Source: Medicago truncatula
Taxonomy: Eukaryota; Streptophyta; Magnoliopsida; Fabales; Fabaceae
NCBI RefSeq assembly: GCF_003473485.1
Contig: NC_053048.1
Span: 7,439,501 to 7,503,500, forward strand
DNA: 64,000 nucleotides
Direction of reading: 5' to 3'
Each line of letters starts with the position of its first letter. The first letter of the stretch is position 1. Of this stretch, positions 9,863 through 41,935 are shown piece by piece. The position numbers were made by a program, and so were the translations under genes. The notes below the pieces were generated by a model, which made no database searches, was not told the origin of the DNA, and saw only the letters and a list, made by a program, of their open reading frames with translations.

Positions 9863-9957
9863 TCTTATTGTTTTCACAAGACAATTGCTTTTGAAACCCT
9901 CTCTTCAACCAGAGGCATATTTTATGTTTTTAAACGTTTATTTTATTTTGTTAAGAT

Positions 9958-10076
9958 AAATGCCAGCAACCCACATTTTAACCAAATTTATATGGGATCC
10001 ACATAATTTGGTAGGACTTATGTGAATTTTAACCAATCAAAGAGAGTGTATTGAAAAATGTGTGTTGCTAGCATTT
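9958..10076. mobile_element. MITE with about 23-bp imperfect terminal inverted repeats
   Basis: The left end aaatgccagcaacccacatt is matched in inverse by the right end, which reads aaatgctagcaacacacatt on the other strand. The 119-bp element has no coding capacity. The target duplication is not clear, so the superfamily is not assigned. The copy in segment A2 lies at about 40464-40582. Confidence 0.7.
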
Positions 10077-10160
10077 CTCATTTTTTTTTAATGTTATTCT
10101 TCAAGATAGAGAGTAAGCATCAAAATTTTCAGTCATAATTTCTTTTCCACTTGTCTCACC

Positions 10161-11389: not shown

Positions 11390-11425
<36 letters not shown>

Positions 11426-12117: not shown

Positions 12118-12463
12118 TGAGTTTCTGGGCAATAACCAAAGTATGGGTTTTTCCACATACATCAGAAAGTTACTTTCCCAGATTTGCCTTGGGACTGGTG
12201 CAGGAGAGATAAAGTGGATTATGCATCTTCATGTCAATGCTTTGAGGGATTGTGTGGTCCTTGTACTGTACCAACTATCATGCGTGTCTATCTCTTGTTG
12301 AACAAGATAGATTTGCTTTGCTTTTGCTTTTTGCTTTTCACCCACTGTACTGTTCATAAAGTAAGCATGTGCTGAGCTGAACATTCTGACCATCAGAATG
12401 TTCCATCTATTTCACTTAGGATAATTTGTTAGACTACCATTTGATGTAATCAAATCCTTATAG
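12118..12463. other. Unassigned spacer, probably truncated intron of the receptor kinase gene
   Basis: No gene is supported here. The left part looks like a continuation of the retroelement-like DNA. The right end (caaatccttatag) makes a plausible intron acceptor for the LRR exon at 12464, so part of it may be a receptor-kinase intron. Confidence 0.4.
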
Positions 12464-12955
12464 TGGAATTCAATGAACTAAGTGGAGAGCTACCAATGGA
12501 GCTAGGAAAGCTTCAAAATCTTCTTGCTGTGAATATATCACATAACAGCCTCACAGGAAAGCTTCTAATTGGTAGCATATTTCAAAACTTGGACAAAAGT
12601 TCTTTGGAAGGAAACTATGGTCTTTGTTCGCCCTTGTTGACAGGTCCATGCAAAATGAATGTACCAAAACCTCTAGTACTTGATCCACATGGCTATAACG
12701 ATCAAATGGATCCTCGAATCCCAAGAAATGAATCATCTGAGTCTAGTAGTCCAATTCATCACCACAGGTTCCTTAGTATTTCAGCTATTATAGCGATTTC
12801 AGCTTCTATTGTCATTGTAATAGGAGTGATTGCTATTAGTCTGGTAAATGCTTCTGTAAGGAGAAAGCTAGCATTTGTGGAAAATGCTTTGGAAAGCATG
12901 TGTTCAAGCTCTTCTAGATAGGATCACCAGCCAGAGGTAAACACATTCTTTTTTA
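12464..12955 (+). pseudogene. Receptor-like kinase, last LRR / transmembrane / juxtamembrane part
   Basis: After an acceptor at 12463 the frame encodes the end of an LRR ectodomain (EFNELSGELPMELGKLQNLL, NISHNSLTGKL), a cysteine pair (YGLCSPLLTGPC), and VPKPLVLDP. A hydrophobic membrane span (AIIAISASIVIVIGVIAISL) and juxtamembrane ASVRRKLAFVENALESM follow. Order and wording match Arabidopsis At3g28040, an LRR receptor-like protein kinase described as probably inactive. A 2-base loss creates a stop at 12919-12921; in the shifted frame GSPARGKHILF continues the homology to 12955, where a Helitron interrupts it. The reading resumes at 22100. All upstream LRR exons are missing. Confidence 0.88.
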
Positions 12956-12983
12956 CTAGTATAATGACCCGTGCTAACACGGG
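12956..12983 (-). other. Helitron 3' terminus: hairpin plus CTAG
   Basis: The minus strand has a 6-bp stem with a 4-nt loop (12968-12983), then tcattata, then CTAG, then host T. This is the terminator-like 3' end needed for rolling-circle termination in this transposon class. Confidence 0.88.
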
Positions 12984-13689
12984 GAAATAAAAAACTTTTT
13001 TAATCAAATGTATAGATTTTAAATTCGATATGAAAAAAATATCATCTTAATTTTGTATATATTTTGAAATATCTAAACATTTCATATAACGATAAAAATA
13101 TTTGGATTATTATACTTGTACTAATTATTTGTAGTATAAGATGCATTCATTGTTAAAATTAGCATATGTAATTTTCTTGCAAAAATACGCCGACGTACTG
13201 TGTAATAATATTTGTTGGCAAAATGTATTTTATTAATCATAAAAACTAAAAAATATGTATTTTTTTTATATAATAGTCATTGTCACATGCATACACGTAG
13301 TAGGTAAATGCAAACGTTTAATTTTTTTTACGGGTGTGTATAAATATAGTTTGGGCTACAGAAACGCCGATTGTTATTTGTTTTTAATTTTTACAAAACA
13401 AATGGTCTAATGTAAATATTGTATTTTAGGGTAACAACGATGTAAACAAAATAAAAAAATAAAAAAAAAGGTTTCACGGATTGTTAAACCTGAAAAGTGC
13501 ATGAATTAATAGTCAATGACAGGAGGATCTACTTATATAGAAATTGCATGTCTATAATGACCAGTACGCCTTACAAAGAAATTAAAAATAAAACGACTTC
13601 CAAACAATAGGCAACTTTAGTTTTATAAATTATAGCAACAACAATTCTAAAACATAACCAATGATCATACTTTTTGAAAAACTTCACGA
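12984..13689. other. Helitron 3' non-coding region
   Basis: AT-rich DNA between the Helitron terminus and the end of the helicase remnant. No reading frame, repeat or RNA is supported. Confidence 0.6.
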
Positions 13690-15310
13690 TACACAACATT
13701 TGTGGTCTCCTTACAAACATTATTATCTTCATCCATGATGAGCAGCTTCAGACCTTTTCTTGAAGTTACTTGAGAGACAGCGACATAAAGTTGTCCATGC
13801 GTGAGCACAGGCTTAGGAAGATAACCCCCACTCGAGATAAAGATTGACCCTGACTTTTATTTATTGTCATTGCAAAACAAAGCGTCAGTGGAAATTGCCT
13901 GCGCCTGAATTTGAACGGTAGTTCTGGATCACTCGGAATAAGATTCATCCTGGGAATGAATACTCTAGTACCTGCCCTTTTTCATGTAATTACGGTAGCA
14001 GCTATCGTGCTCTTCCCTAGACGTGTAATTGTCAGCCTAGTACCATTACACAGTCCATTGCCTTGATCGATGTTTCTCATCAGCATAACCGGACATCCCA
14101 CCTTTAGTTTCAACCTGTGATTTGGAATTCCAAAGCTCTTAATACCATTAAGAAATTCTGGTGTGAACCACTCGCTTTGGACATCAGAATTTTCACCCGA
14201 TCTAAAAATAGAATCAGAGGTTAAATACTCTTTCTCTTCACCTGGAATCAGCGACATCATAAATTCGTTAACATGCTCAACTGAATCAAGCGTTGGTGCG
14301 AGTATTCCCCTTTCTTGGAAAAGTAGTTGGTCACCAAGGTTATCATTCAGATCGGGATACACAAAGTCTATAAGTGACATCAACGGATTTGTTGTGTCTG
14401 ATATCAGCGAATCTTCAGGAATTTCTACCTTCATTTCACCATTGTCACCCGAAGCATCGTTGCCGTCTCCAATTGAGAGTATCCACTTGCAAAAATTAGC
14501 AATTTCTTCTTGCTCTGCAGGTACCGAAGATGCACCCAATCTCATATTAACAGTAAGCCTCAACACATTACAATAAGCCTATATCTTTGACGAATTGACC
14601 GAGGCATCAACAATATCCGGCCTCGTTCCTCCTCGGACAACAGGCAATATCTGCCTAAAATCACCACCTAAAACTACTGTCATTCCACCAAAAGGTTTAA
14701 GTGCGTTTAAGGGATCATTCTTGAACATGATATCACGTAATGATCGGTCAACTACCTCAAAACACCATTGGTGCATCATTGGAGCCTCACCCCAAATTAT
14801 CAACTTTGCAGCATGCATTAGGTCTGCCCTAGGACTATCCTTTTCCATCGTAAGCGATGACGCCTCATTAATCTCAATAGGGACTGTCGGCGTGGAGTGT
14901 GCGGTTCTTCCACCTGGTAATAGAAGAGCCGTTATACCGTTTGATGCAACATTCAATACAATTAACCCCTTCGATCTAACAACAGCCGACAATCTTTTCC
15001 ATATAAAGGTTTTTCCAGTACCGCCGTAACCATATAAGAAAAAGAAACCACTATCGTCAGAACCAACAGACTCCATGATCTTGTCATGCACACATCTTTG
15101 TTCATCTGTCAGCATCAGTAACATATCAGCGTGTGTCTTTTCCAATTCAACTTTGCTGTAATTTAGCTCATCAATGATAAGTCTGTTTGTGAAAGTTGGC
15201 ATGTCTGCCGCGTTTGGCCTAGGCATAGATTTGAAGTCAGTAAGCGACGTCCGTTTTCCTGAAGCAACATTTCAATTTCAATCAAACACATGTTCTTCAA
15301 GTCATCGCCA
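13690..15310 (-). pseudogene. Helitron PIF1-like helicase (C-terminal half), degenerate
   Basis: On the minus strand the motifs run in order. A segment near 15300-15240 (SGDDLKNMCLIEIEMLLQ) is followed by TDEQRCVHDKIMESV, Walker A GYGGTGKTF, LNVASNGITALLLPGGRTAHS, a Walker B region IIWGEAPM, and VLGGDFRQILPVV. After a TAG at about 14581 come LRLTVNMRL, ILAPTLDSVEHVN, LKLKVGCPVMLMRNID, LCNGTRLTITRLGKSTI. After a TGA at about 13982 come [22 protein letters not shown] and a frameshift before the last block. This is the SF1 PIF1-type helicase of Helitron RepHel proteins, which unwinds DNA during rolling-circle transposition. The Walker B acidic residue (normally DEAPM) is Gly here, so it is inactive by sequence. 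Confidence 0.9.
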
Positions 15311-15929
15311 CTGATACGCATATCTACATATTAAATGTAAAGTCACGAAATTAATATGAACACCTAAAGAAAAATGATAGTAAAAGAATATATGCAATGC
15401 AACAGAAAAAATGATATTAAAGTCACGACTCAATTCTTAATCGAAAAAGCTTATTTCAGCTTAACTCAAACTAAAAAAATAAGTTTATTTGTAAAGGATT
15501 TCCCAAGCCATTATTTATTTAAAGCGAAAATAAATAGATATAGGAACTGCTATAAAATGATGTCATGAATGCTCACTAATCTAGATAACGTGAAAAAGTA
15601 ATCAATTAAAAAACAGAAAATGTGAACAAATTAATCAAGATATACATGGTGGAAAGCTATATATGACAGTTTTGTGGCGTTGACAGTAGATAAATATATT
15701 TATTTAATAGTGTATAATCAAATTAATAGTGTATTTGTTTTTTTTTTTTTTGAAAGAATATTGTATTTGTTTATTATCACTACTTAAATAGATAAATATA
15801 TTTATTGAGATAGGCATACAATACTTTGAACAGGACTATGTTAACCAATTTTCTAAAATGTGCCTTTTTAGACAGAGAAAAAAAATGCAAAAATTAGATC
15901 GTAAACAAAACAAAAAATGGTGCATAGAT
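15311..15929. other. AT-rich gap within the Helitron helicase gene
   Basis: It separates the helicase core from its upstream part and may include a degenerated intron or later insertion. Nothing further is recognisable. Confidence 0.5.
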
Positions 15930-16480
15930 TTAGTAATAAGTACAATAAACATTACCCAAAATATTCAGACGCTTCCTACGTTCAAATAAGATATCATTGG
16001 ACAGTAACTGCCATGCCGCATCCCATACTATATCAGGGCTCGTCATTGTCCTAATGGTTAAGAGATGCACAAACAACCAACACAATTGATGGCCCGAACC
16101 TAACTCACCATTTTCCGTAATACCATCTATAAACTCTGTCGTCATCAAGTAATCCTAAAGCAGAGCGTGCTTCCTGGAACGTGTCATAGGTATGTCCATT
16201 AATCGTTTTTCATCTATATCTCATGCAGCCCTTCTTAACAGTCAATAGTATCCTCATGTAGTACAACTCAACGATCAATAGTATCCTCATGTAGTACAAC
16301 TCCCATATACCAGGCGGCGTGTAATGAAGCCTTCCAATTTGATATCCTAGTTTACGTGGCTGCCACTGTTTGTCCTTCTTCTCATAAGTAAATCTTGTTA
16401 GAAATTCAGCATATGTTAGATCGCGATCGCCTACATACTGACGATTTGCTTCAAACCACACGAGAAACATGGTCTATGCT
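15930..16480 (-). pseudogene. Helitron RepHel linker region upstream of the helicase, degenerate
   Basis: Minus-strand pieces read MFLVWFEANRQYVGDRDLTYAEF, then PRKLGYQIGRLHYTPPG, LYYMRILL, KKGC, TYDTFQEARSALGLLDDD. After a frameshift come EFIDGITENGELGSGHQLCWL, RTMTSPDIVWDAAWQLLS and DILFERRKRL. These match the conserved region just N-terminal of the helicase in plant Helitron proteins. A 33-bp tandem duplication repeats LYYMRILL at about 16230-16300, adding in-frame residues. The N-terminal Rep nuclease motifs are not seen upstream. Confidence 0.85.
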
Positions 16481-16549
16481 TCCTTGTTATACATCACCAC
16501 GTCCTCGATGTCTCTTTTGCTGCTTTGTTAATCTCATATGTCATCTTGT

Positions 16550-17575
16550 TTCACATATCATTTTCGCTTCTATGTAGTTTTGCACAACCTTCCTTTAAAA
16601 TCTTTTGTAAGAAAACACTATATTTTTCATCCTTTAAATTCCACCACTTGATCCTTGTATCCCAATCACGACATCTCATCTTTGGTCTTCTCTTAACCCT
16701 TACATCCATAACCAATATTATATGTTGGATAATCAAACTCTCTCCAAGTAAATCTTTAAGTCCAAACAAATATTTATGTCAGAATTCCCAATAAGAAATA
16801 AATCTATCTGAGAACATGATATCTCACTCTTGTATGTAATAATATTCCCTTTTCTTTTCCTAAAGTAAGATTAAAAGACAACAAAAAATCTAGGATGGAT
16901 TTACCGAATGCTTTTTTCTTCCCAAGGCTATACCCTCATTCACGCCTTCAAAAGTTATGAAGCACTCCTTACATGCTCATTTAGATCCCCTCCTAGAAAA
17001 ATATTCTTATTGTGGTATATCTTTAATTAAGCCTTTCAAATCCTTCCAAAATTTTACTTTAGGGTATTCTTTCAAACCTATCCAATGTGAGTAAACACTA
17101 ATAACATTAAAGATGTCTTATTTCCTTTCAAAAAAATAAATTAAAGATGTCTTATGAAACTACAAATTTGTGGGCTACAATCCAATCTCCTGTCCTCTTT
17201 ACATTCAAAATATCTTTTTTCCATTCCTTATCCTCAATAATGGCTACACCATTTCTCGATCTAACTATTCCAGTTTACCAATGCTTAAATACTGAACTAT
17301 CTAATTCTTTCGCATTTTCACCCACCCACTTAGTTTCTTGTTGGCACATAAATTAATCTTCCTCCAACTCATAACGTCAATCATTTTCATATATGTTCAA
17401 GTAAGGGTGCCTTTTTCCATGTTCAAAAACATATCCTACTATCATGAACTAACTTCTTTACCCACACTTGTTCACAAAGATGTGGGACCCTTGCTTATTT
17501 TTTTACTTCATTCAGGCATCGGTGTATCCACCTTTTCTCATTTAACATTGTACTTGAGCTATACAACCCGTTTCT
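16550..17575 (-). pseudogene. LINE-type endonuclease (EEP) remnant
   Basis: The minus strand reads, with stops and frameshifts, QETKWVGENAKELDSS, RSRNGVAIIEDKEWKKDI, RTGDWIVAHKFVV, and near the left end ESLIIQHIILVMDVRVKRRPKM with DTRIKWWNLK. This follows the endonuclease/exonuclease/phosphatase domain of plant LINE-like sequences, often auto-annotated as craniofacial development protein 2-like. At least three stops are visible. It lies within the Helitron on the same strand as the helicase, so it was either captured or inserted afterwards. Confidence 0.8.
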
Positions 17576-17726
17576 TCTAGGCACTATCCTAATGTTCACA
17601 CTATTATATACTTGGTCCATGCCATAGAGATTCAAAGTGTTTCAATTAATTCAAGTGATCAAATTTTAAACAGTAAAATATAGTCCAAGTCTTGAGTTTT
17701 TTATAATATATAATTTCATTTAATTA

Positions 17727-17910
17727 AAGGGTTTTTATATCATGTGCAAATTTGCACATGTTAAGAAGTTTAAAGTACTATGTTTGATTTGGAACTTGTG
17801 TATTTTCTATTAATATATAAATTTTTAATAAATAATTGTTGTTTTCCAATAAATAGTTGCCGCTTTTAGTTACTTTAACATATGCAATTTTGCAAATGTT
17901 AGACAAACCC

Positions 17911-17912
<2 letters not shown>
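17727..17912. mobile_element. 186-bp MITE with long inverted ends and a 6-bp flanking repeat
   Basis: The ends AAGGGTTT and AAACCCTT are flanked by taatta on both sides (17721-17726 and 17913-17918). The inverted similarity extends about 40 bp inward through gtgcaaatttgcacatgttaa / ttaacatatgcaattttgca. It has no coding capacity and is nested inside the Helitron. Confidence 0.75.

Positions 17913-17918
<6 letters not shown>

Positions 17919-17960
<42 letters not shown>
17919..17960. repeat. TA dinucleotide microsatellite
   Basis: A run of about 20 TA units sits between the MITE and the Mutator-like element. It may obscure the target duplication of the latter. Confidence 0.95.
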
Positions 17961-17963
<3 letters not shown>

Positions 17964-18842
17964 GATGTATCATATGAGAATGGTATGTATATGTGAGAAT
18001 GATGAGAATGAATGTGAGTCATCAGATTAAAAACAAATGGTTAACATTAAAAAACTTAACATGTGCCAAACTCCCACTACTCTCACGCGTTCATTGTTCT
18101 TCATCTGCATTCCAACCAGATTCTTCCTCTTCCTCTCCCACAGACCACAACACATCAGCTTCCTTTTCCGGTGCTCAAACGTTGTTCCCAACAAAAGGGT
18201 CGTCGGAACCAGCCAAGCTTTCCAACAACCACGAGGTTATCGTTCGCAAAACCCCCAGACCCCACCACCACAAGGATCGCTCCCCTTTCCCAGATCCGTT
18301 GTATTTACAGTGAGCCATAGTCACCGGCGCCGAGTGCCGGCAGGTCGTTAGTGTGCCAATAATTGATTGCGGATTATTGTTTGTGTTAATTTGAATTGAA
18401 AAAAAAATATTGTTAAGGGGTTAGAAAAAAAATTGATAAGAGGTCTCGTAATTTTTTTACGATAATTGCCAAAACAAATCCATTAATGAAATTTTTTGGA
18501 AGGATTCAAACTTTTGATTTATTTTCAACTATAGTTTACCTTTATTCATAACTCATGAAACTTCAAGGCCTCATGAATTTTCTTAATAAAATGAAATAGA
18601 ATATTGTTGGTGATTCATCAGAGATAACTTAATGTTGGGTGCTAAAGCATAGAGAGTTGGGTGGCCGACAATGGTGGTGTGTGGCTAGAAGAAGAAGATG
18701 AGAATGATAGGATCAAGTGAGAATGCGTGAAAGGAGTTTGTGAGTTTGGCACATGTTAAGTTGTTTTAATCTTAACCCTTTGTTTTGAATCTGATGTTTC
18801 TCATTCATTCTCACATATACATACCATTCTCATAAGATAGCC
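17961..18842. mobile_element. Mutator-like element with about 125-bp terminal inverted repeats
   Basis: The left end (17961-18090) and the reverse complement of the right end (18720-18842) share tatgagaatggtatgtatat, then gtgagaat, catcagatt, acttaacatgtgccaaactc and ctttcacgc-like segments. Long TIRs of this size are typical of Mutator-like elements. The interior holds a GC-richer stretch (18080-18350) with three overlapping open frames. Its composition differs from its surroundings, which suggests captured gene sequence (Pack-MULE style), but no protein family is recognised. A 9-bp target duplication cannot be shown because of the TA run on the left. Confidence 0.75.
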
Positions 18843-20651
18843 CTGATTGGAGCATGTCAAAGTTTCAACAAATTATTTATAATTAATACAATTAAAGTAT
18901 GTGTTTTATTTTTAAAGAACAAAATAGAATTTTTTTTTTATATGCTTATTTAAAGATTATTCAGAGGTACTTCCTAACAATTTTTTATATCGTATTCACG
19001 ACTAATAACAATCATTTGAACTATTTTATTTCTCCCAATTAGTCTTTGGAAGTAAGTGTCGTGAAACAGAGAGAAAAATAGATAGCCTATTTAGAAGGTT
19101 TGTACCAAATTAATTTCATTCAAAATATTACAAACTACTATGTTTTAGTTTTCTTAATAAGTGTGTTTTTTTTTTTTTGCTTATAAGATGAGACGGAGGG
19201 AGTATATAGATTTCAAGCACATCGCCGTGAATGCTAAAATATTTATTTACTTTGCTCTTAAAAACTTAATATGATGAAATTGATTTATAAAATTAACATG
19301 AATCATTCTTATATTATAGATAGATGATCACTTGTTTTACAAATGTAGCTTTGTTGTAAGGATTTGGGACAATAATTTTAAATGGAAAGGAACAGTGGTG
19401 ATTTTACCCGGCAATATTTTTTCACTCCTTGACTATTTTCCATCATCTTTTGAAGAAGAAAAAAATCCAATCAAATATAATGCAATATAATTTGGATCAA
19501 TATTTACATATCCAAAATAAAGTAAAAGAAAACTCTTTTAATGTTAATAATATAAAGGAACAATAGATTAATAGGTTTGATAAAAAAAAATAGATTAAAC
19601 TAATAAGTATTATTAAAAAAAGTTGGAAACCCTTTTCATTTCATTTTATCACAAGTTGATAAAATTTGACACACACACACTCATGAGAGTAAGCTGAAGT
19701 ATCACAAAAAATTAAAATTAGAAACTAATAGATTAACGTAATAAATTTGTAAAAGTTTAGTATAGAGGTAAAAAGACATATCTTAAATATTAAAGACATA
19801 TAACCAAATTAAATCAACTTGGATAAAATGAAATTGACTGCTTTTCCAAAAAAGGTTAATATAATTATTTTTAAAATGTCTTTAGGTTTAAATTTTTTAA
19901 AAAAGATCAAAGTATTTTTATTCATAAATATTTCATTATTTTTTTATGAAAAAGTTAGTAAACAAATTAATCAATTTATTCATAAAAAATTAAATACATT
20001 ATACATAACAATTATTATTAAAATTTGTCATTAATGATAATCTTTTCATTAAAGCTAATTATTATTTGAAATCTGATAATAAAATGACTTATTTGAAGAT
20101 ATCATTATTCATTAAGGAAAATATTCTCATAAAAATTAATGTTTATTCAAAATATTACAATTTGATGACTTGTTTAGGAAGTTTGTATCACGTTAATATT
20201 TTTTTTTTTGTTACAAAGGGAAATATCGCATTAATATATTTTATTAAATAATTATATTTTTATTTTTACTTTTTTACTTGTATTTCTTTGATTGGTTGTA
20301 TATAACTCTTTTTTTAAAAATATATTGGTTGTATATAACTATTAATTATTATGTGAGAGTTCACCTTAGAATTTCTTACGTGAAAAGTGTTACCGAGGGT
20401 GTTGATAAAAACTCGTGAAAAATAATCTAAATTCATGCACATGTATTAATATACTTGTATTATTCATGTAATATACTTGTATTATTCATGTACATGTGAT
20501 ATACAATAAATTAATAATTACAAATCATGAAGAAAAATGGGCATTCACGACACGCAACACTAAAATTTCCAATATAATAAATACAATCTTCAATTTCTTT
20601 GTCATTCTTGTATTTGAAAAAAAAAAAATTAAAGAAATAGTGCACTATTTC
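18843..20651. other. Very AT-rich Helitron interior without genes
   Basis: Open frames here are low-complexity Lys/Ile/Phe strings. A solitary gacggagggagtat end at about 19191-19204 resembles the terminus of a Stowaway-like MITE, but no matching partner was found nearby. Confidence 0.55.
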
Positions 20652-20777
20652 TTAATACACTAAATTCAAACGCCTCATTATCAATGTCTTTTGCAATGCT
20701 CCATCATATGACTCTTCTTCCTCATAAACGACTTTTTGTGCGTCACAATTTCGAATCACTTTGTCTCCCTGTCTAAA
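20652..20777 (-). pseudogene. Terminal-exon-like fragment of unidentified gene, inside the Helitron
   Basis: On the minus strand a good acceptor (attgttttttag) precedes a 41-codon open exon ending TAA: FRQGDKVIRNCDAQKVVYEE, then EESYDGALQKTLIMRRLNLV and a final Y. Its base composition is coding-like within very AT-rich DNA. It may be a captured host exon or part of a retroelement gag. No family is assigned. Confidence 0.4.
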
Positions 20778-22078
20778 CTAAAAAACAATAAAAGATATAA
20801 AAATAAAAGCTTTATGTAATCTAAATTAAAAATGAAAACGACAATATATGTTAATGAGAATGAGAGATTAACATTTTTCAATCACATATAAACCAAAGTC
20901 TAAAAACAAAAACAATGAAAATTGAAATGATTATTCAAATAGGAGTCATAGAAAATAATATGAAAATAAGAAAACAAAGAACAATTCAACAAAAAATTTG
21001 AGTTTATAGAGACTTTCAGAAAATTTGTGTTGCATTTTCCATGTGATGTAAAACTTGTGAGTATCGTAAACAATATTTATAGGAAAAATCATCAAAGTAA
21101 TCACAATAATCACTCCCTTGATTTCTTCAAAAAAAAAAAAAATCACTCCCTTGATTTACGGATAAAATAAATGTGAAAAATATCCATTAATTTTCAAAAA
21201 GTCACACATTTGAAATCAGAAACAAAATCATATTATGTTAATCATATTAGTGCATTTTAATGATTTTTTTATTATTCCTTTATTTGTTTGAAAGTCAACA
21301 AAGTTAATTATGGTATATTTTTGTTCTTCCAAAAATTTGAATATTTTTAATTTAATAATTTTTTGTGGTAATTTTCTTTGGCTAATGAGGAATTACATGA
21401 ATATATATTTTTCGTAACATTAATAATAAATATATGCTAGTACTATTTGTTTTTAAGGAATAATATATGTTAGTACTATTTGTAATCCAACAAATTAAAA
21501 AACAATTTATTAATCTTCTCATTAATAATATATTAATTAGTACTATTTTCTTTCTTTGCAAAATTCTAATATATTAGTATTATTTTATGAAATCCAATAA
21601 TTTATAGACGTCATTCATAATGAAAACAATAATAATATTACTACTATTATCTCGATAGTTAATTATTATATTATTAAAAAAAATATATGCACAATATTAG
21701 GCCTATTCTTTTTATTTTTGAAGAGATAATAGGCCTATTCTAAAAAGTAGTATATAGAATCATGCATATTGGTGTACAAATTTAATTTGAAACTACAATT
21801 CCTATTCTGGTTACTATCATAATAACGTTTTTATCTAAAAAATAATAATCATAATAATGTTTTTTTAGGAATATTAATATTGCAATTTATTCATAATATC
21901 AAAATCAAAAATATAAATGGTTATAAAAATTAATTTGGGATAGCATTAAATATGAAATGCATGAGAGAAGAGTGCCACATATTGAGACTTGGAGCAAATG
22001 CAAATGCTTGAGGAAGAGTGCCACGTGTCAACACCAAGAGAAGAAAAAATTACTTCCATATTAGGACTTGAAATAGGT
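20778..22078. other. AT-rich Helitron 5' half without genes
   Basis: No supported coding sequence was found; the minus-strand frame at 20946-21146 is low complexity. This should be the transposon's 5' region, where the Rep domain would normally be encoded, but none of its His/Tyr motifs was recognised. Confidence 0.5.
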
Positions 22079-22099
22079 CCTAAATTTATATTATATAGA
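22079..22099 (-). other. Helitron 5' terminus
   Basis: Minus strand: host A, then TCTATATAATATAAATTTAG. The 5'-TC followed by an AT-rich run agrees with plant Helitron starts, and the host T at 22100 completes the A|T target. Confidence 0.85.
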
Positions 22100-22728
22100 T
22101 TCTCAATCCACACTGGATTGGATCAGCAATCCAGAAAACTTGCTCAACAAGGCATCTGAAATCGGTGAAGGAGTGTTTGGAACAGTTTTCAAAGTTCCAT
22201 TGGGATCACAACAAGGAAGAAATGTTGCAATCAAGAAACTTATCACATCAAACATTCTTCAATATCCAGAAGACTTCGACAGGGAAGTTAGAATTATAGG
22301 AAACGCCAGACATCCAAATTTGATTGCGTTGAAAGGATACTATTGGACTCCTCAACTACAGCTTTTAGCATCTGAATTTGCACCAAATGGTAACTTGCAA
22401 TCCAAGTTACATGAAAAGCTTCCTTCAAGTCCACCACTTTCTTGGCCAAATAGATTCAAGATTTTACTTGGAACAGCAAAGGGACTTGCACATTTGCATC
22501 ATTCATTCAGGCCACCAATAATTCACTGCAACATAAAACCAAGCAACATCTTACTTGATGAAAACTTCAACGCTAAGATATCAGATTTCGGATTAGCTAG
22601 GCTATTATCAAAGCTAGACAAGCATGTGATGAGTAACAGGTTTCAAAGTGCATTAGGCTATGTAGCACCTGAACTAGCTTGTCAGAGCTTAAGGGTCAAT
22701 GAGAAATGTGATGTGTATGGCTTTGGCG
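22100..22728 (+). pseudogene. Receptor-like kinase domain, copy 1 (continues 12464-12955; 3' truncated)
   Basis: Reading resumes after the Helitron with SQSTLDWISNPENLLNKASE, then a glycine loop (GEGVFGTVFK), VAIKK, EDFDREVRI, GNARHPNLIALKGYYWTPQL, ASEFAPNGNLQSKLHEK, LLGTAKGLAHLHHSFRPPII, HCNIKPSNILLDENF, KISDFGLARLL, SALGYVAPELACQ and NEKCDVYGFG. The catalytic-loop HRD is HCN, lacking the proton-acceptor Asp, as expected for the probably inactive At3g28040 family. The C-lobe is missing: after GFG at about 22728 the sequence becomes an APC2 fragment. The open frame ends with a stop at 22779-22781 in the fused part. Confidence 0.9.
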
Positions 22729-23247
22729 CATCAACCAATGATATATATTACACCAATATGTTTCAACTATTAAAACCCTAAGGACAATAGATCATGCAGG
22801 TGTTTTCCTTGAGGCAGTTGGTGAACCAATAAAATGCATAGTTACCATGCTGACAGATGGTACAATATGGAAATCCCGGAAATAGCCTTCTTCAAGAGTT
22901 GAATAGAGATGAAGAAATTCAAGAAAATTTTGGTATTGATGATGATTTTGACACTGATGATAGGCAAGCATGGATCAATGCCACACGGTATATTTATACA
23001 ATGGTTTTTCATTCGCATTGCCACATTGTGTTAAATTGATGTTTCTTCTAAATGGGATTTTCCAAGCAGATGGCAACCTGATCCTGTGGAAGCCGATCCA
23101 TCGAAGGGAAGCAGACACCAAAGGAAGGTTGACGTGCTTGGGATGATTGTTGGCATAATTGGTTCGACAGATCACTTAGTTCTCGATTATTAAACTATGC
23201 TTGTTGAGAAGCTTTTAAATAAATCTTATTATGATATTGACTCAGAG
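22727..23247 (+). pseudogene. APC2: Anaphase-promoting complex subunit 2 (APC2) gene fragment
   Basis: The fused stretch encodes ASTNDIYYTNMFQLLKP, LRTIDHAGVFLEAVGEPIKC, IVTMLTDGT. After a frameshift come GNPGNSLLQELNRDEEIQEN, FGIDDDFDTDDRQAWINATR. A 82-nt intron (22988-23069, GT..AG) follows, then WQPDPVEADPSKGSRHQRKV, DVLGMIVGIIGSTDHLV. A TAA follows, then MLVEKLLNKSYYDIDSE, ending at a natural donor (gag|gtt). This matches the central part of plant APC2, the cullin-like scaffold of the APC/C ubiquitin ligase. A retained intron shows genomic rather than mRNA-derived capture. Frameshift and stop make it a pseudogene. Confidence 0.88.
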
Positions 23248-23278
23248 GTTAATTATCTGATTCTTTTTATAGCTGCAG

Positions 23279-23373
23279 ATGGTTTGCATTGCTGATCCCC
23301 CTTATGACAAGTCACTCCAACAACCACAAAGCATTTTATCTAGTCTAGTCTCTGAGGAGAAGTTAGAACTTCG
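23279..23373 (+). pseudogene. Unidentified exon fragment fused behind the APC2 piece
   Basis: A 95-nt open stretch is bounded by an acceptor (tagctgcag) and donor (cg|gtatgg). It encodes MVCIADPPYDKSLQQPQSIL and then SSLVSEEKLELR. Only 31 nt of intron-like DNA separate it from the APC2 exon, too short for a normal plant intron, and it does not match the next APC2 exon (IRTLELLKI in the family). It looks like an exon from a third gene; its source is not recognised. Confidence 0.55.
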
Positions 23374-23690
23374 GTATGGATTGTACAGTCTTAAGTAGTG
23401 AGCTAATGGAACTAAAATAATCCTTTTGGCCATAGTTTTAAGCAAAAAGGATACATATGTTCTTCAGAACCTGAATATCTTGAAAGTCTCATTTTTGTTT
23501 GTTTGTATAGTCCTTAACCGATTCCACAAATTTCAATCATCGCATCCGTGATGACTATCCTTGTCTTCATTGATTATTGTTATCATACTTTTGGACTTAA
23601 ATAAACAGATTATGATCTGAAAATTTGTTGATAAACAGCAACTTCTGCTCCCTTTTGGGCTTAAGATATGATTCCTTATTCTTTTTGCAG
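23374..23690 (+). other. Intron-like DNA before kinase copy 2
   Basis: No coding content. It ends with a pyrimidine-rich tract and TTTTTGCAG, a good acceptor directly before kinase copy 2. Confidence 0.55.
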
Positions 23691-24589
23691 ATTGGATCAG
23701 CAATCCAGAAAACTCGCTAAACAAGGCATCTGAAATTGGTGAAGGAGTGTTTCGAACAATTTTCAAAGTTCCGTTAGGATCACAACAAGGAAGAAATGTT
23801 GCAATCAAGAAACTTATCACATCAAACATACTTCAATATCTAGAAGACTTCGACAGGGAAGTTAGAATTCTAGGCAACGCCAGACATCCAAATTTGATAG
23901 CGTCGAAAGGATACTATTGGAATCCTCAACTACAGCTTTTAGCATCTGAATTTGCACCAAATAGTAACTTGCAATCCAAGTTACATGAAAATCTTCCTTC
24001 AAGTCCACCACTTTCTTGGCCTAATAGATTCAAGATTTTACTTGGAACAGCAAAGGGACTTGCACATTTGCATCATTCATTCAGACCACCAATCATTCAC
24101 TACAACATAAAACCAAGCAACATCTTACTTGACGAAAACTTCAACGCAAAGATATCAGATTTCGGGTTAGCTAGGCTATTAACAAAGCTAGACAAGCATG
24201 TGATGAGTAACAGGTTTCAAAGTGCTTTAGGTTATGTAGCACCAGAACTAGCCTGTCAAATCTTAAGGGTCAATGAGAAATGTGATGTGTATGGTTTTGG
24301 TGTGATGATACTTGAAATAGTGACAGGTAAGAGGCCGGTGGAGTATGGTGAAGATAATGTGTTGATATTGAATGATCATGTGAGGGTTTTGCTTGAACAT
24401 GGTAATGCTTTGGAGTGTGTTGATCCAAGTTTGATGAGCGAATATCCCGAGGATGAGGTTTTACCTGTTTTGAAGCTGGCTATGGTCTGTACATCTCAAA
24501 TTCCATCTAGTAGGCCTACTATGGCAGAAGTTGTGCAAATATTGCAGGTCATTAAAACTTCTGTTCCTCAAAGGATGGAAGTATTTTGA
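23691..24589 (+). pseudogene. Receptor-like kinase domain, copy 2 (complete C-lobe)
   Basis: After the acceptor at 23689-23690 the frame runs open for about 298 codons to a TGA. The product starts WISNPENSLNKASEIGEG and includes VAIKK, HYNIKPSNILLD, DFGLARLLTK, GYVAPELACQ, VYGFGVMILEIVTGKRPVEY, LECVDPSL, PVLKLAMVCTSQIPSSRPTM and ends VPQRMEVF. It matches the complete kinase of the At3g28040 family. The second glycine of the P-loop is Arg (GEGVFRTIF) and HRD is HYN, so ATP binding and catalysis look impaired. It lacks the LRR and membrane parts and its own start codon, so it is probably an orphan fragment, though translation from an internal start cannot be excluded. Confidence 0.85.
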
Positions 24590-25669
24590 TGACACTAATA
24601 CGCATATATGTTTAGCTATTTTCAGTGGTTTTAAACTGCGGTCACAATTACACATTGAACCTTTGTACTTCTGAGAAACACAGTAGATTCAACCACAATT
24701 GTAGTTTTGTTGTCATTGCAGTTATCTTAAAAACTGTTACTTGTGGCTTCGAGTACATAAAGTATTCTGTATTATCAAGATTATTGCATTTTTCTATTTT
24801 GTTTCCTTCATATTGTGTATCCTTTTTAACTATAATTCAGTTTATGTGGATTCTAGTTCATTGCGTATAAATATGTAATTATCAACTCCAAGTTTCCCTT
24901 TTATCAATAACATCAATTTATTAATGAGTGTATTTATTCCTAGTTAGGAGAGGTATCCACATCCAATGTGCCTCGAAAAGGAATACCTCAAACTAGTAAT
25001 TTGTTAAAAAAAAAAGGTAAGACATAACTTTTTCATGATATAAATAAACAAGAGTATTGTAAACAAAACAAAATTTGGGTGCAGGACTAACTAAAACGGA
25101 CAATCTTCATAGTTGTGTTCTAGGTCGCAGTTTGCGGGTAAGATCGAGTTAGTGACTAAAGAATGAGTACAATGTAAAACAAACTTTGAGAGAGGTGGAA
25201 TCTTTCTACAAAGTTTTTAATCCTATATAAAATAAAATTCAATTGACGGTAACTTTAATAGTTGCTTAGCTTACTTCAATGGGGCCAAATATATTATGGT
25301 TTTATAGTTCGTATGAAAAATGTCCTACATGTATGTTGAACATCATTGTCAGATTGCAATTTTTGAATTTTTCTTTAAGTTTTGAGCTCAGCATTTTGAT
25401 GTCTCTGAATGTTGAGACTCGAAATAATTCTACCTCTTATTATTATGATTTATAACCTTTCTAATTCTAACATCATATAATTCTTTGCAACTTGAGAAAG
25501 TATCAACATATTATCTCAAAACATGTTATGTAAAGTTCTGCTAAAAATGCCTCTAGGAATGATCAGCATTTTACAAATCCCATAACCACCAAGATGGTAT
25601 GTTAGAATGAAGCTTCGTGGTGATTGCTTGGTACTCCTTTTCAAGAGTCAGTTCAACCTCCAATATAAT
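24590..25669. other. 3' flank and spacer after kinase copy 2
   Basis: Presumed 3' UTR followed by AT-rich DNA. No gene, RNA or clear repeat is supported. Confidence 0.5.
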
Positions 25670-27266
25670 TAGAGTGATAGTAATAAAAATAAGGAGTAAT
25701 ATGGTGAATCTAAATAATGAAAAAAGAATCTAGTGTCCCAAAAATAGCCAATATGTTATGTGTTAAAAGTTATAAGTCTCGCATAGAATAGTTTTATGAG
25801 CTTATCACATCAAACATACTTCAATTTCTAGAAGTCTTTGACACTGAAGTTAGAATTCCAGGCAAAGCCAAACACCAAAGTTTGACAGCATTGAAAGATT
25901 ACTATTGGACGCCACAACTACAACTTTTAGTATTTGAATTTGCTCCAAATGGTAACTTGCAATCCAAGTTACATGAAAAGCTTCCTTCAAATCCTTCACT
26001 TTCTTGCACACCAAACAATAATTTACTACAACAATTGCGGTTGTGTTGCCATCAGGGGCGGTTTCACCGCCCGGCGACCCCGGGCGGTCGCCCGGGCTCG
26101 ATCGACGATTTTTCTACATTACACCCAACCCAAAAGCCAATTAACACACATACAAAAATAAAAATTTGGACAATCTAAAAATTCTCACACGCAAATAGGT
26201 CACGGAATTTTATTTAGCACACTATTGACGGGTTCATCTCTCTTATTTTAACGGGTTAATTGTTCAAATTGATCCTGTAATATACATAATGTCTGAAAAA
26301 TGACCCTTCAAAATACAAAACATATACTATAGCATTGTAACTTGAATTTCTTCTTATTTTTGACTACCCTGTAATATATGTGTAGTCTAAAAAAGTGACC
26401 TACATGTTGAATTTTTTCATTATTTTTTTCATACATGTTTAGCACGTTAAAATATAGTTTTACATAAAAAATTAAATTTCTTCGACCAGGGATAAATTAA
26501 TTATGAATTTTTATTCCCACATAATTATGAATTTCTTAAACAATTTATAATTAATTTGTATATCGTTTAAAGACTACAAAATTTCATTGTGAAGGTTCTT
26601 ATCATGTTCTAGTCATGCCTACAAAATTAGGGAACTAAACTTGACTTGTTAGTATACGCTTACACGGAACAAAATTTCAATTTTGCACGTTTTGGTATTC
26701 GATTTATAGGTCGAGATTTCCTTTGTTTTGTTTTTTTTTTAGCTTTTGACACTTTAAAAGTTCATAATTAATTTGTCGTTTGTCGAAAATTTATAAATTT
26801 TTTGTGTAAAGCCATATTTTAACGTTCTTAAATCACCTCTAACAAATCATGAAAAAAATAATCTATCGGTTGCTTTTTTGGACTTCGCGTATATTACAGG
26901 GTTATAAATAATAAAAATATCGAATTACATGGTCAGAATATATGTTATTTAATTATAGGGTCAATTTTCAGACTTCACGTATATTACATGGTCAATTTCA
27001 ATTAATAATCATATTTTAAATTGTACTTTTGTTGACAAAATGATAAACCTCTTTTATTTCGATTTTTTAATTAAAATTAAAATTAAAAAAAAAATCGATT
27101 TATGAATGTTGATATATTATATCACATGTGAATTTGAGAATTTTTTTTTGCCCGGGCTCCATAAATTTCCTGACTCCGCCACTGGTTGCCATTATAAAAA
27201 TCTCGAAAACAGTTATATTGCGACGTAGTTTAGAACTATGACTTCAAGTACAAAAAATCTTCTTTA
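25670..27266 (+). pseudogene. Short kinase-gene fragment, tandem unit 1, interrupted by a hAT element
   Basis: The plus strand encodes LITSNILQFLEVFD, then LTALKDYYWTPQLQLLVFEF, APNGNLQSKLHEKLPSNPSL, matching the N-lobe to hinge part of the nearby kinase copies (about 25796-26010). Homology stops abruptly after SLS. Units 1 and 2 are direct repeats joined at tctttagta/attagag; without its 1.1-kb hAT insertion unit 1 equals the 467-bp unit 2. Confidence 0.85.
26053..27184. mobile_element. Non-autonomous hAT element, 1,132 bp, with 8-bp target duplication
   Basis: The ends are CAGGGGCGG and, inverted, CAGTGGCGG. The element is flanked on both sides by gttgccat (26045-26052 and 27185-27192). 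The paralogous unit 2 holds the empty site, with a single gttgccat at about 27651-27658. CAG-type ends with an 8-bp duplication define hAT. It has a GC-rich left end (cccggcgaccccgggcgg) and no transposase frame. Confidence 0.93.
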
Positions 27267-27733
27267 GTAATTAGAGTGATAGTAATAAAAATAAGGAGTA
27301 ATATGGTGAATCTAAACAATGAAAAAAGAATCTAGTGTCCCAAAAATAGCCAATATGTTATGTGTTAAAAGTTATAAGTCTCGCATATATAGAATAGTTT
27401 TATGAGCTTATCACATCAAACATACTTCAATTTCTAGAAGTCTTTGACAATGAAGTTAGAATTCTAGGCAAAGCCAGACACCAAAGTTTGACAGCATTGA
27501 AAGATTACTATTGGACACCACAACTACAACTTTTAGTATCTGAATTTGCTCCAAATGGTAACTTGCAATCCAAGTTACATGAAAAGCTTCCTTCAAATCC
27601 TTCACTTTCTTGCACACCAAACAATAATTTACTACAACAATTGCGGTTGTGTTGCCATTATAAAAATCTCGAAAACAGTTATATTGCAACGTAGTTTAGA
27701 ACTATGACTTCAAGTACATAAAATCTTCTTTAG
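27267..27733 (+). pseudogene. Short kinase-gene fragment, tandem unit 2
   Basis: A 467-bp direct repeat of unit 1 without the hAT insertion. The kinase-like part (about 27408-27615) reads LITSNILQFLEVFD, LTALKDYYWTPQLQLLVSEF, APNGNLQSKLHEKLPSNP. Flanking similarity includes the upstream segment starting attagagtgatag. It lies 430 bp upstream of the FBD F-box start codon and is part of the 15.4-kb duplicated unit. Confidence 0.85.
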
Positions 27734-28029
27734 TATCAAGATTATTATTGTCTTTTATTTTATTTTTTCCCTTCATGTCGTGTATCCTTTTTACCATTGA
27801 AATTGACATAATTAATCATTTTTGTAAAAATTGTACACAAACCTAAAACAACGGTTATTTTAAAATAGAGGAAGTATTTTATTTTCAAGATATACATTTA
27901 CATTTTTATCTAACATTAAAAAATGGATGTTTATTGATAAAAGGGAAAATGAGAGTTAAATGTAGAAAAAGTGCGGGGTGATTAAAATAAAATAAAATTG
28001 AGGAAAACAAAAAAAGAAATGAAAAGAAA

Positions 28030-28161
28030 AGAAAAGGAGAATTGAAAACGTAACAAGTAACAACACACTCATTCCTCTCAGTCTCTCACTCACTCACACA
28101 CACTCGTTCCTCTCAGTCTCTCACTTGTTCTCTCTTTCCCTCAAACCCTAACTTGTTGAAC
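28030..28161 (+). promoter_or_regulatory. CT-rich leader of FBD F-box gene 1
   Basis: Two imperfect tandem copies of cctctcagtctctcact precede the start codon, in a pyrimidine-rich stretch typical of plant 5' UTRs; the transcript start is not determinable. An identical leader is at 43391-43522. Confidence 0.55.
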
Positions 28162-31100
28162 ATGGCTGAAGAAGAAGAAGACGGTGAAGATCGCATCAGT
28201 TCCTTATCAGATGATTTGCTTGTTCGTATTCTGTCAAACCTTCACACTCGCGAATCTGTAAGCACTTGTGTTCTGTCAAAGAGATGGGTTCACGTTTTCA
28301 AAGCTCTTACTTGTCTGAGATTAGATGATGAAAATGGTTCATTGCTTGATGCTTTGGATGAGATGAGACATCGAACTGACCTGACGAGTTTCGATTTGAG
28401 CATTTTTACTCGGCGAAGTGGAGATATCGTCACGGTTGCTGAAAAAGCTGTTCGTAACATAGTGCGTTTGAATCTTAGCTTGAACTCTCTCTCAATCTAT
28501 GGTATATTGAATATGTATCTTACTCGTCCTGTCTTCAATTCCCGTACTTTGGTGGAGTTGAAACTTCACCGTGTATGTATAGCTGAGACTCTATCCGTTG
28601 CCTCTTTGCCTTCACTAAAGGTGCTTTCTCTGTCTCGGGTTCAATTTGACACCAAATCGGTTTTCCTTTCTCTGCTATCTGCTGTGTCGAGGGTTTTGGA
28701 GGAATTGCGGATTTCGTCTCCCACTTTTTCGGCTCCGATCTGCGACCGTGAAGCTGACCTTTTTCCTTGTCTCCGTGGTGCCTTTCTACACAAGCTACCT
28801 TGGGAAATGCTTGTCTTGTTCATCAGTGTTTCACATCTCCTAACAACCCTTGAGTTTACTCCTATGGTAATCTATCATTAATCATTACATCATGTATATC
28901 CTAATTTAATATGTCTATGTTATATACTATACTCCCGTGTTTCACTTATATTTATATATGCTAATTAAGTTAAATGAGAATTTAATCCGAATAATATATA
29001 TTGGTTTTGTGATGGTGTGTCATTATGCGTGTAGAACTCAATTTAGGATTGTGTGTGTAGTACTCAATTTAGGCGAGGCCGACATTAATTTGATGCAATG
29101 ATAAGAGAGTTAGTGTTTTAGTGACATTGTCGAATTTGGGATTTTGACAGCTGCAAACTTGCAGTTTAGAATGTAGATTCTAAATTTAGGATCATGTTTT
29201 GACAGTTGCCATTTGTCTCATTTCAGAAACTGATTCTGTTTTGCTAATCGTATTTCCACTTGTGCTATTATGAATCATAACATTCCCCATTAAATTTCAT
29301 TTCTTCATGTTCCTTTCGTTTCTTTTAAAGAAACTCTAGATTAACATGTCTCTCTAATACTCTTCCGAAATTCACATTTCTCTTATCGGGTGAAATTCAT
29401 GTGGATCCCACTATTTTAGAAATGTTCCCCACTTAAAGTGATCAGACCGACATTAATTTGATCCGATAAGAGAGTTGGTGTTGGACTTTGGAAAGAGAGG
29501 TTAGACTAAGTGTTACTAGCACTACTCTTAACATGTTTGCGCATTGGACATGTCAAATTTGGAATTTTTACAAGTTCAAACTTACAATTTAGAATGTAGA
29601 TTCTAAATGGAATTTTTACAAGTTCAAACTTACAATTTAGAATGTAGAAGATTCTAAATGGAAATACAAGGTTTCACTTGTATACAATTTTATTGAATTT
29701 GTGTTTAGGTGTGAGATTTGAGACCATGACATTTACCTAGTGCTAGACTAACTTCTATGGCATTTATAATAGTCATGTTGAGCTGGTTTTGGAGATGCTA
29801 TACTATCTCTTGTGCTAGTTGATGTGAGTCAAAATGAAAGAACATGTTAACTTTGAATTAGTAGGATGAGAAGGCGATTAATGTGCTTGTAGTGAGTCAG
29901 AATGGAAGGACCTTTTAATTAACATTGGAATTTCTTTTCTTTAGTTGTGGATGATAAAATCTTGAATATGATTATAAATTCAAATTTTTATGAAAAATTA
30001 ATATTACAATTACGGTCTTCCCCTTTGGCCAGTGTATCATGAATTATGGTGTGGTGCGATGCCCTGTACAAGTATGTGATACATTAGGGTCAAAATTTGT
30101 GTAGAATTGGATTTTTATGCATAAGCTGAAAATATAGTATGAAGCATTGAATGAATATCATGACTAGGACAATTAGTATGTCTTATAAAACGAGGGGGAT
30201 AATGTCAATAACTTTGACACATGACAGTGGTTGAATTTTTGCAAGAAATGCTAAGAGAGAGTACGGTGAGAAACTGAGGAATATGAAAATTTCTCAAGCC
30301 CTTTGAGAAAATTTCACAAAAGGGGTGTTATGAGGGACGTAGTCTGCTGTTGGAAAGGAATAAGCTACTCCATTCTCTGTTTGAAACCAAAGTTCTGAAT
30401 CTAAGAGATGCACAATGTTTTCTATTTCTCGCACTCGTAAAGTTGAACAGTTTTTAGCATCTCGGGTTGCACATGCTTGCTGCCCAACGTGAGGCGTAAA
30501 GGATTATGGATTAGAGGGATTCATGTTTTATTTCTTTTTGTTTACGGGCACTAAGCATTATTTTATCAATTAATTTCTGACCGTTCTTGTCCAATATGAT
30601 TTATTGTTTTTCGATTATTTCAATTTAGTGCCTTGTGTGTTTGCTGGTTGCGAGATACAAAACAGCCTTATGGTGTGATATCTTACGTCGTATGCTTGTG
30701 GTTCAGCATTCTGTAACGGTTCAGATATCTTACACCAATAACAAAATGAGTCTCAAACACTATTCACTAGTATAAATGATTAGAACAAGGAAAAAATGGC
30801 TGAATTGAGAAATACAAATACTGATGACCAATGTAATAGTAGAATTTATGGAAGGGAAAAATACTGAAAGTAAGATAGAGAGCCTATGATTGCCAATCCT
30901 CACTCCTTTAATATCAGTCAAAAGGGAATATTATGCGTGTAGAACTCAATTTAGGCGAGCCGACGCTAATTTGATGCGATGATAAGAGAGTTAGTGTCTT
31001 AGTGACATTGTCGAATTTGGGATTTTGACAGGTGCAAACTTGCAGTTTAGAATGTAGATTCTAAATTTAGGATCGTGTTTTGACGGTTGCCATTTGTCTC

Positions 31101-33492
31101 ATTGCAGAAACTGATTCTGTTTTGCTAATCGTATTTCCACTTGTGCTATTATGAATCGTAACATTCCCCATTAGATTTCATTTCTTCATGTTCCTTTCTG
31201 TTCTTTTGAAGAAACACTAGATTAACATGTCTCTCTACTACTCTTCCGAACTTCACATTTCTCTTATCGGGTGAAATTCATGTGGATCCCACAATTTTAG
31301 AAATGTTCCCCACTTAAAGTGATCAGACCGACATTAATTTGATCCGATAAGAGAGTTAGTGTTGGAATTTGGAAAGAGATGTTAGACTAAGTGTTACTAG
31401 CATTACTCTCAACATTTTGCGCATTGGACATGTCAAATTTGGGATTTTGACAGGTTCAAACTTACAATTTAGAATGTTGATTTTAAATGGAAATATAAGG
31501 TTTCACTTGTATACAGTTTTATTGAATTTGTGTTTAGGTGTGAGATTTGAGACTAACCTCTGACATTTACCTAGTGCTAGATTAACTTCTATGGCATTTA
31601 TCTTAGTCATGTTGAGCTGGTTTTGGAGATGCTATACTATCTCTTGCGCTAGTTGATATGAGTCAAAATGAAAGAACATGTTAACTATGAATTAGTAGGA
31701 TGAGAAGGCGATTTATGTCCTTGTAGTGAGTCAGAATGGAAGGACCTTTTAATTAACATTAGAATTCTTTTCTTTAGTTGAGGATGATAAAATCTTGAAT
31801 ATGATTATAAATCAAATATTTATGAAAAATTAATATTACAATTACTGTCTTTCCCTTAGCCAGTGTATCATGAATTATGGTGTGGTGTGATGCCTGATAC
31901 CTGTACAAGTATGTGATATATTAGGGTCAAAACTTGTGTAGAATTGAATTTTTATGTATAAGCTGAAAATATAGTATGAAGCAGTGAATAAATATCATGA
32001 CTAAGACCATTAGTATGTCTTATAAAACGAGGTGGGTAATGTCAATAACTTTGATACATGACAGTGTTTAAATTTTTGCAAGAAAAGCTATGAGAGAGTA
32101 CGGTGAGAAACTGAGGAATATGAAAATTTCACAGAAAGGGTGTCATGAGGGACATAGTCTGCTGTTGGAAAGGAATAAGCTACTCCATTCTCTGTTTGAA
32201 ACCAAAGTTCTGAATCTAAGAGCTGTTACTCGTATAGTTGAACATTTTTTAACATCTTGAGGCGTAAAGGATTACGGATTAGAGGGATTCATGTTTTATT
32301 TCTTTTGTCATCTGAAGAGTGTTCTATCTTCTAATTTTTTTGAACTCTGTTTTGTACTTATTTCTGGAGTTCAACATGTATCCCACATTATCGATAATTG
32401 ACAAAGTGTTTAGCTTGTTTATAATGCTTGTTTAAATGTGTTATCTGCTTTCATACACTTTATAAACACGCAACCAAACATAATACGGATGAAGAGAAAA
32501 TAATTCAGCTCCGTTTGTGTTCTTCCATGCTTGTACTGTATATGAGAGTAGGCTTGTTTGTAAAATGTTCCTTGTTCTTGCCTTAAGTTTGTTATTGTTG
32601 GTTAATGATAAAAATCAGTACTCACTTTTCCTTTTTATTAATGAGTGGTAATCTATTTTCACTAATGTTAATTATTACATTATGTATTTTCACTTATGTT
32701 AGCCATTACATCACATTATGTATACACCAATGTTGCATATGCAGTTACTATTATATGTGCTCATCACTGCCTAGCAGTACTCACCCTGTAGTTTTTGAAT
32801 TAGAGAAGTTCTTGCGATATAATATCTTCTAATTTTTGGCCTCCAATTCATGTCTGCAGATAAGATTATTTTATTGATCATTTGATCATTTTTTGAATTT
32901 CAGATATTGTGAAAAAATTGATGTATTTATGTTATGTTTCAAATTTTTGTTCTCACTACTCATCCTTAATATTATACTTAAGTTCATTAATATCATTTCT
33001 TAGATGAAAATGCCGATACATAATCTGCAATTAGATTTTGTGTACTATTATATGTGCTCATCACCGCCTAGTAAATGTACTTCTCTTTCAGAAAAGGAAA
33101 GTAGAAACAAATCAAATCAGTTTTAAAATTTTGATAGCTTATTTATGTAGAAGCCTGAACAGTTTTATTTATTTTAATTATATTCTGCTTTAATAATTTT
33201 GTGACAGGATTCTAGGCAGATGGAAGAAGGAGAGGAAAATGTGGATAATTGGATCAATCCAATAATTGTTCCAGTGTGCTTAACCAATCAGCTCAAATCA
33301 TGCTTTCTTCACGGTTACAAAAGCACAACATGTCAGGACCGCTTTGTGAGATATGTTATGCTTAATTCCAACAGCTTGAAGACCATTTCCATAAAATGTC
33401 TTCCTTCTACCGATACAACCGTCAAGTATGGATGGTTAAAGAAACTAGCTTCATGGAGGAGGTCATCCACTACCTCGCTTCTCTTTGATTGA
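28162..33492 (+). CDS. F-box/LRR/FBD protein, gene 1 (two-exon model)
   Basis: Exon 1 (28162-28866) starts at ATG in good context (aacATGgct) and encodes an F-box at residues 10-50 (DRISSLSDDLLVRILSNLHT ... CVLSKRW), then LRR-like strands (LVELKLHRVCI, LPSLKVLSLSRVQF, VLEELRIS). It ends at a donor (cctatg|gtaatc). A 4,341-nt intron leads to exon 2 (33208-33492), encoding the FBD domain (W.NP..VPVCL, RFVRYVMLNS, RSSTTSLLFD). The exons join in phase 0 for a protein of about 329 residues, shorter than the usual 400 or so. The strand between LRR and FBD (family pattern F.NL..LEL) is not seen, so a middle exon may be missing or undetected. Reading through the donor instead gives a stop at 28879-28881. 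Predicted SCF ubiquitin-ligase substrate receptor. Confidence 0.78.
28867..33207 (+). other. Long intron of FBD gene 1 with internal duplication
   Basis: Two related blocks of about 1.4-1.5 kb lie in tandem: 29025-30538 and 30928-32303. They share the same order of landmarks, from atgcgtgtagaactcaattt to ggattagagggattcatg. The first also contains a local tandem repeat of about 50 bp at 29562-29660. No coding exon was found between the two assigned exons. Confidence 0.75.

Positions 33493-41895: not shown

Positions 41896-41935
<40 letters not shown>

Follow-up and report, generated by a model that had tools for sequence, protein, structure and literature searches.

A kinase-APC2-kinase composite in Medicago truncatula that probably arose as a pseudogene by stepwise rearrangement within a local gene cluster

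On C7 of Medicago truncatula, a kinase segment runs into a piece of the gene APC2, which in turn is followed by a second kinase segment, and this arrangement raises the question of how the pieces came together and whether they encode a product. The kinase-APC2-kinase composite is present at 22100-24589 of the window, the whole stretch of 64,000 nucleotides that was analysed (C7:7439501-7503500). All coordinates refer to this window, with values below 0 or above 64000 denoting flanking C7 sequence, and DNA searches covered the whole assembly (429,922,655 bases in 42 contigs). We found relatives of every gene part within ~103 kb on the same chromosome. The best full relative, here called K, is an LRR receptor kinase with open exons located ~54 kb downstream (78086-82100, minus strand). 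Both of its open stretches give matches, to LRR families and to Pkinase, and we take its layout to resemble that of Arabidopsis At3g28040. An APC2 gene, here called the C7 APC2 gene, lies 41-43 kb upstream of the composite. The parts of the locus, including two kinase copies (C and B) and the two copies of a duplicated block (D1 and D2), are as follows.

1..12117, plus strand: right-hand portion of D1 (upstream copy in a 19.2-kb duplication; 99.927% to 23413-42627)
12118..12467, no strand given: piece of a high-copy dispersed repeat (at least 40 matches, from the best 40 of 436 candidates scored)
12466..12955, plus strand: left part of kinase copy C, K-derived, with a 1-nt deletion (97.0% to K in 502 aligned sites, a few of them repeat bases at the left edge)
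12956..22099, minus strand: Helitron of 9,144 bp (termini, dispersed copies, helicase frames)
22100..22726, plus strand: right part of kinase copy C, ending at GFG (98.25% to K in 629 sites, the count beginning at 22098; Pkinase E 1.9e-34)
22725..23247, plus strand: APC2 fragment with exon end, intron and part of the next exon, frame broken (93.8% identity to the C7 APC2 gene over 518 ungapped sites)
23248..23278, plus strand: remnant (31 nt) of the last APC2 intron (aligned to C7 and C4 APC2)
23279..23398, plus strand: last exon of APC2 (collinear with the C7 and C4 genes; C4 homologue matches PF08672)
23399..23676, plus strand: APC2 3' flank (collinearity with C7 as far as 23652)
23679..24880, plus strand: kinase copy B with its 3' flank (59 differences in 1191 sites against K; Pkinase E 2.6e-37)
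23413..42627, plus strand: D2 (downstream copy in the 19.2-kb duplication), which starts within the APC2 3' flank

The two halves of copy C, 12466-12955 and 22100-22726, adjoin in K. An earlier note on this DNA had described a kinase part fused at GFG to APC2, and alignment confirms this: the kinase open frame 22077-22781 runs into the APC2 stretch, and the joint at 22726 reads ...VYGFG/ASTNDI... in frame, with GG common to both sides. At the joints between gene parts, the alignments leave 0-2 shared bases. After the kinase-APC2 joint, however, a 2-nt insertion relative to APC2 is followed by a stop at 22779-22781, 17 residues past GFG, so that the frame is discontinuous across the joint, contrary to what a functional fusion gene would need. 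Copy C also lacks the LRR exon and carries a 1-nt deletion and the 9.1-kb insertion upstream. These lesions give no support to a chimeric protein, and in our reading the composite codes no chimeric product. With copy B as the outgroup, 5 changes fall on the copy C branch and 3 on the K branch in 611 sites.

The similarity of the central part to APC2, also proposed in the earlier note, holds in protein searches: the corresponding exon of a C4 APC2 copy, with which the window DNA can be aligned, matches ANAPC2 chains in PDB (7 sequences at E <= 0.001, best 2.4e-23) and Pfam TPR_ANAPC2 (E 1.8e-28). The fragment keeps its own intron, as had been noticed, with GT and AG ends in place and a length 28 bases shorter than that of the C7 gene's intron, and the 31-nt intron remnant described before the next exon (23248-23278) can likewise be aligned to the APC2 genes. 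The exon behind this remnant had been assigned to a third gene. We ruled this out, as it is the last exon of APC2 itself: the C4 homologue matches Pfam PF08672 (ANAPC2, E 8.6e-10), and the window stretch aligns with the C7 gene through exon, acceptor and 3' flank and is collinear also in both C4 copies. A PDB search with this 40-aa exon returned nothing at E values up to 1. The composite lacks the 2,463 bases that separate its two APC2 stretches in the C7 gene (-20056 and -17593). The retention of the intron, the intron remnant and the 3' flank supports an arrival of the pieces as genomic DNA, in agreement with the earlier note; the intron and the intron remnant exclude a processed (mRNA-derived) chimera or retro-copy.

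The APC2 fragment has accumulated 22 changes in 518 sites on its own branch, as opposed to 8 on that of the C7 gene (2 ambiguous), and for the right APC2 piece the corresponding numbers are 16 and 12 of 291 sites (6 ambiguous). Exon changes comprise 5 synonymous and 18 nonsynonymous on the fragment branch, whereas the C7 APC2 branch has 9 and 4, respectively, and this difference indicates that the fragment is decaying neutrally. Plants usually carry one APC2 gene, and we observed three APC2 loci in this genome, one on C7 (-23235 to -17444) and two on C4, the latter being 98.4% alike and ~64 kb apart. We also observed an inverted, older kinase remnant (~80%) at -12281 to -11540, ~5 kb beyond the C7 APC2 gene, and therefore APC2 and this kinase family would have been neighbours earlier.

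Between APC2 and copy B lies a short linker. Homology of the APC2 flank with the C7 copy extends to 23652, and 23658-23676 matches the two C4 flanks at 19/19 and 18/19 bases, collinear and ~130 bp further along; this match replaced an origin ~1 kb down the APC2 flank that we had considered for the linker. From ~23679 the linker reads LILF like K, a 10-base match aligned by eye, and 15 nt are then absent before GATTGGATC; clear homology to K begins at 23690. The T-rich run and the CAG probably arose within kinase coding sequence. Thus, what had been taken for a good acceptor, TTATTCTTTTTGCAG, is on this by-eye alignment probably kinase coding sequence minus 15 nt, as opposed to the end of an inherited intron. 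Behind it, a second kinase copy is present as had been described, and corresponds to copy B (Pkinase E 2.6e-37).

Copy B contains an open frame of 299 codons (23690-24586) and differs from K at 34 of 897 coding sites, 21 of the differences being synonymous and 13 nonsynonymous. Under neutrality a mean of 9 synonymous differences would be expected (95% range 4-14), and none of 5000 simulations with random placement reached 21; an open frame alone is expected in 29% of simulations. This synonymous excess (21 against 9 expected) indicates that constraint acted on copy B during most of its divergence. In addition, nonsynonymous change is rarer in copy B (13 in ~690 sites) than in the APC2 fragment (18 in ~421; p 0.024), a comparison in which the site numbers are approximate and the copy B figure sums two lineages. 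The 3' flank differs from K at 25 of 294 sites. Copy B derives from an LRR receptor kinase type whose HRD motif reads HYN. Three features speak against function: it lacks the LRR part, its open frame has no ATG before the HVMSNRF stretch, and one glycine of the GxGxFG loop is R. The simplest reading would be a recently truncated gene, which may or may not produce protein today. Alternatively, copy B could be a working free-standing kinase domain with an APC2-derived transcript leader, maintained by selection and copied recently as part of the 19.2-kb block, which we regard as improbable. If copy B is active, local rearrangement would have separated a receptor kinase domain from the receptor to which it belonged.

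The 9.1-kb element that splits copy C lies on the minus strand and ends one base before 22100. Its 5' end, TCTATATAAT, is at 22099, and at 12956 a 3' hairpin is followed by CTAG. The hairpin has a folding energy of -8.4 kcal/mol (z -4.73), which none of 200 shuffles equalled, the folded stretch stopping just short of CTAG. A query with the 5' end, for which 40 of 123 candidates were scored, gave at least 47 matches; leaving aside the element itself, 33 of 46 begin at query bases 10-12, and the T of the TC end is base 12. The 3' end, with 40 of 152 candidates scored, yielded at least 40 matches, and of the 39 besides the element's own, 27 stop at query base 246, which is the flanking T. An A precedes TC in all five sites read at four other loci, while a fifth locus lacks the exact motif. 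The insertion lies between A and T, and K displays the empty site. Broken, decayed minus-strand frames show similarity to PIF1 (E 2.2e-67) and Pif1_2B (E 9.6e-23); no Rep domain turned up in the Helitron frames scanned. Plant Helitrons carry a PIF1-type helicase, and like them this element combines TC and CTRR ends, a 3' hairpin, an insertion target between A and T, dispersed copies and PIF1-like frames, from which we conclude that it is a Helitron. Since it splits copy C and the intact site is seen in K, it inserted after copy C had formed and was not the carrier of the composite. Within the element, open frames at 17978-18420 might represent a captured gene piece; the one that was scanned had no Pfam match.

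The right side of the composite belongs to the 19.2-kb duplication. D1 (-7091 to 12117) and D2 (23413 to 42627) align across 19,216 columns at 99.927% identity, with 6 substitutions and 8 gap columns; some of these differences fall within homopolymers or a short tandem repeat, and there is none in the last 700 bases before 12117. On the left, D2 continues into APC2, its older context, whereas D1 abuts a truncated copia-type reverse transcriptase. This sequence (RVT_2, -8000 to -7092) is cut off where D1 starts. On the right, D1 continues into the dispersed repeat, which runs unbroken across 12117 in 7 of 7 other copies aligned, and the right context of D1 is therefore the older one. D2 meets another repeat unit there (27265-34809 and 42626-50140, 97.6%). 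With the older left context in D2 and the older right context in D1, the edges are hard to reconcile with a single, simple tandem duplication. Unequal crossing-over between dispersed repeats was considered as its cause, but the final 700 bases before 12117, identical in D1 and D2, give no sign for or against it. The 7.5-kb direct repeat 27265-34809/42626-50140 predates the 19.2-kb duplication, and its stretch holds an F-box-like open frame at 28054-28881, recognized by eye.

To look for another locus with the same order, as the earlier note had proposed, we searched the whole genome with 22729-23690. All eight matches were scored: the window itself, the C7 APC2 gene (2 matches), two C4 APC2 copies (2 each) and a local duplicate that shares only bases 685-962 of the query, that is, its right part. 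Among these 8/8 scored candidates, no second locus with the kinase-APC2-kinase order was found in the assembly, an absence that is not proof.

The local relatives in matching order, together with the lack of any other such order in the assembly, argue for local rearrangement, and we consider it likely that the composite is a pseudogene built by stepwise local duplication, deletion and end joining in a gene cluster. From the observed parts, their local relatives, the joints, the Helitron and the duplication we infer the following sequence of steps and repair pathway. A copy of APC2 would have decayed, losing internal exons and part of its flank, and the remnant would have come to lie directly before kinase copy B, which was already without its LRR part. 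A 1.1-kb piece of the neighbouring K may then have been inverted and joined between the dispersed repeat and the APC2 remnant, giving rise to copy C, into which the Helitron would subsequently have inserted. Later than copy C, and perhaps also later than the Helitron insertion, a 19.2-kb stretch beginning inside the APC2 remnant would have been duplicated. The order of APC2 decay, copy C formation and duplication is suggested by the branch lengths (22/518 against 5/611 against 6 substitutions in 19.2 kb), and the joints could have been made by end joining or template switching with little homology. Two observations count against this scheme: the 299 open codons and 21 synonymous differences do not fit a long decay of copy B, and the D1 and D2 edges do not agree with one simple tandem event.

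How do other explanations compare? The fusion could be a single tandem-duplication joint, the end of one repeat unit meeting the start of the next at a spacing of 30,504 bp. In keeping with this, D1 is followed by the repeat and copy C, APC2 precedes D2, the direction is the same and two bases are shared at 22726. Copy C and K, however, differ at 11 of 629 sites, whereas D1 and D2 differ by only 6 substitutions in 19.2 kb; moreover, copy C, with its 1.1 kb, is foreign to this place and broken on either side, and two further losses would be required. We therefore give this possibility a low probability, about as low as that of a working copy B. Less probable still is an assembly artefact in which the joint or the 19.2-kb duplication was misassembled: assembly is difficult where 19.2-kb copies are almost identical and similar kinase pieces numerous, and D1/D2 differences in homopolymers or a short tandem repeat would be in line with such an error, but divergence varies between the pieces, which also have mutations of their own, the 22726 joint lies outside the near-identical copies, and D1 and D2 do differ by 6 substitutions.

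The earlier note had favoured Helitron-like capture or break repair. Helitrons can carry gene pieces as genomic DNA, and a rolling-circle element could have taken up kinase and APC2 pieces and deposited them here; in its favour, a real Helitron does end at 22099, next to the composite. Yet the termini at 12956 and 22099 leave the APC2 pieces and copy B outside, copy C was split by the element, which thus arrived later, and the relatives of the parts are local. The note had proposed a search for Helitron termini around 22729-23690; the stretch 22727-23689 does not begin with TC or finish with CTRR, and no Helitron ends were found at the gene junctions. Capture by the element present was rejected on its termini and because no second locus was found among the matches scored, and Helitron capture in general is the least probable of the explanations, very unlikely in our view. 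The break-repair half of the proposal has fared better, as the joints with 0-2 shared bases are of a break-repair type. By its position the Helitron looks guilty; it is a bystander, which cautions against calling Helitron capture from proximity. Unlike a gene-capturing Helitron, it was inserted into the composite and did not carry it.

Returning to stepwise local rearrangement, the composite looks like ordinary decay within a gene cluster, in which one kinase piece keeps a mark of past selection. The Medicago pan-genome paper describes clusters of RLK, kinase and F-box genes with duplication, copy-number change and decay, as well as an unexpressed tandem NBS-LRR duplicate (PMC5369179). Like the birth-and-death pseudogenes of those RLK and F-box families, the composite sits in a decaying gene cluster; it differs from the clusters described there in that pieces of two unrelated genes were joined and a 19.2-kb block was copied afterwards (PMC5369179). 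In Drosophila yakuba, tandem duplications are reported to yield chimeric gene structures, with expression changes measured (PMC5460883). Gene pieces are joined at duplication edges in both cases, but in the Medicago composite the fused frame is broken and the joint predates the duplication (PMC5460883). A title search of the literature, with most subscription papers outside it, returned no published description of the locus. It offers a well-resolved case of clustered plant genes that were cut and rejoined, every part being traced to a neighbour within ~103 kb.

Relatives of copy B are mostly local too: a query with this copy gave 14 matches, 10 on C7 within ~91 kb and 4 weak ones elsewhere. 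Three more short kinase copies (206 bp, 86-88%) were observed at 25801-26006, 27407-27612 and 42768-42973, each inside a 391-bp repeated block.
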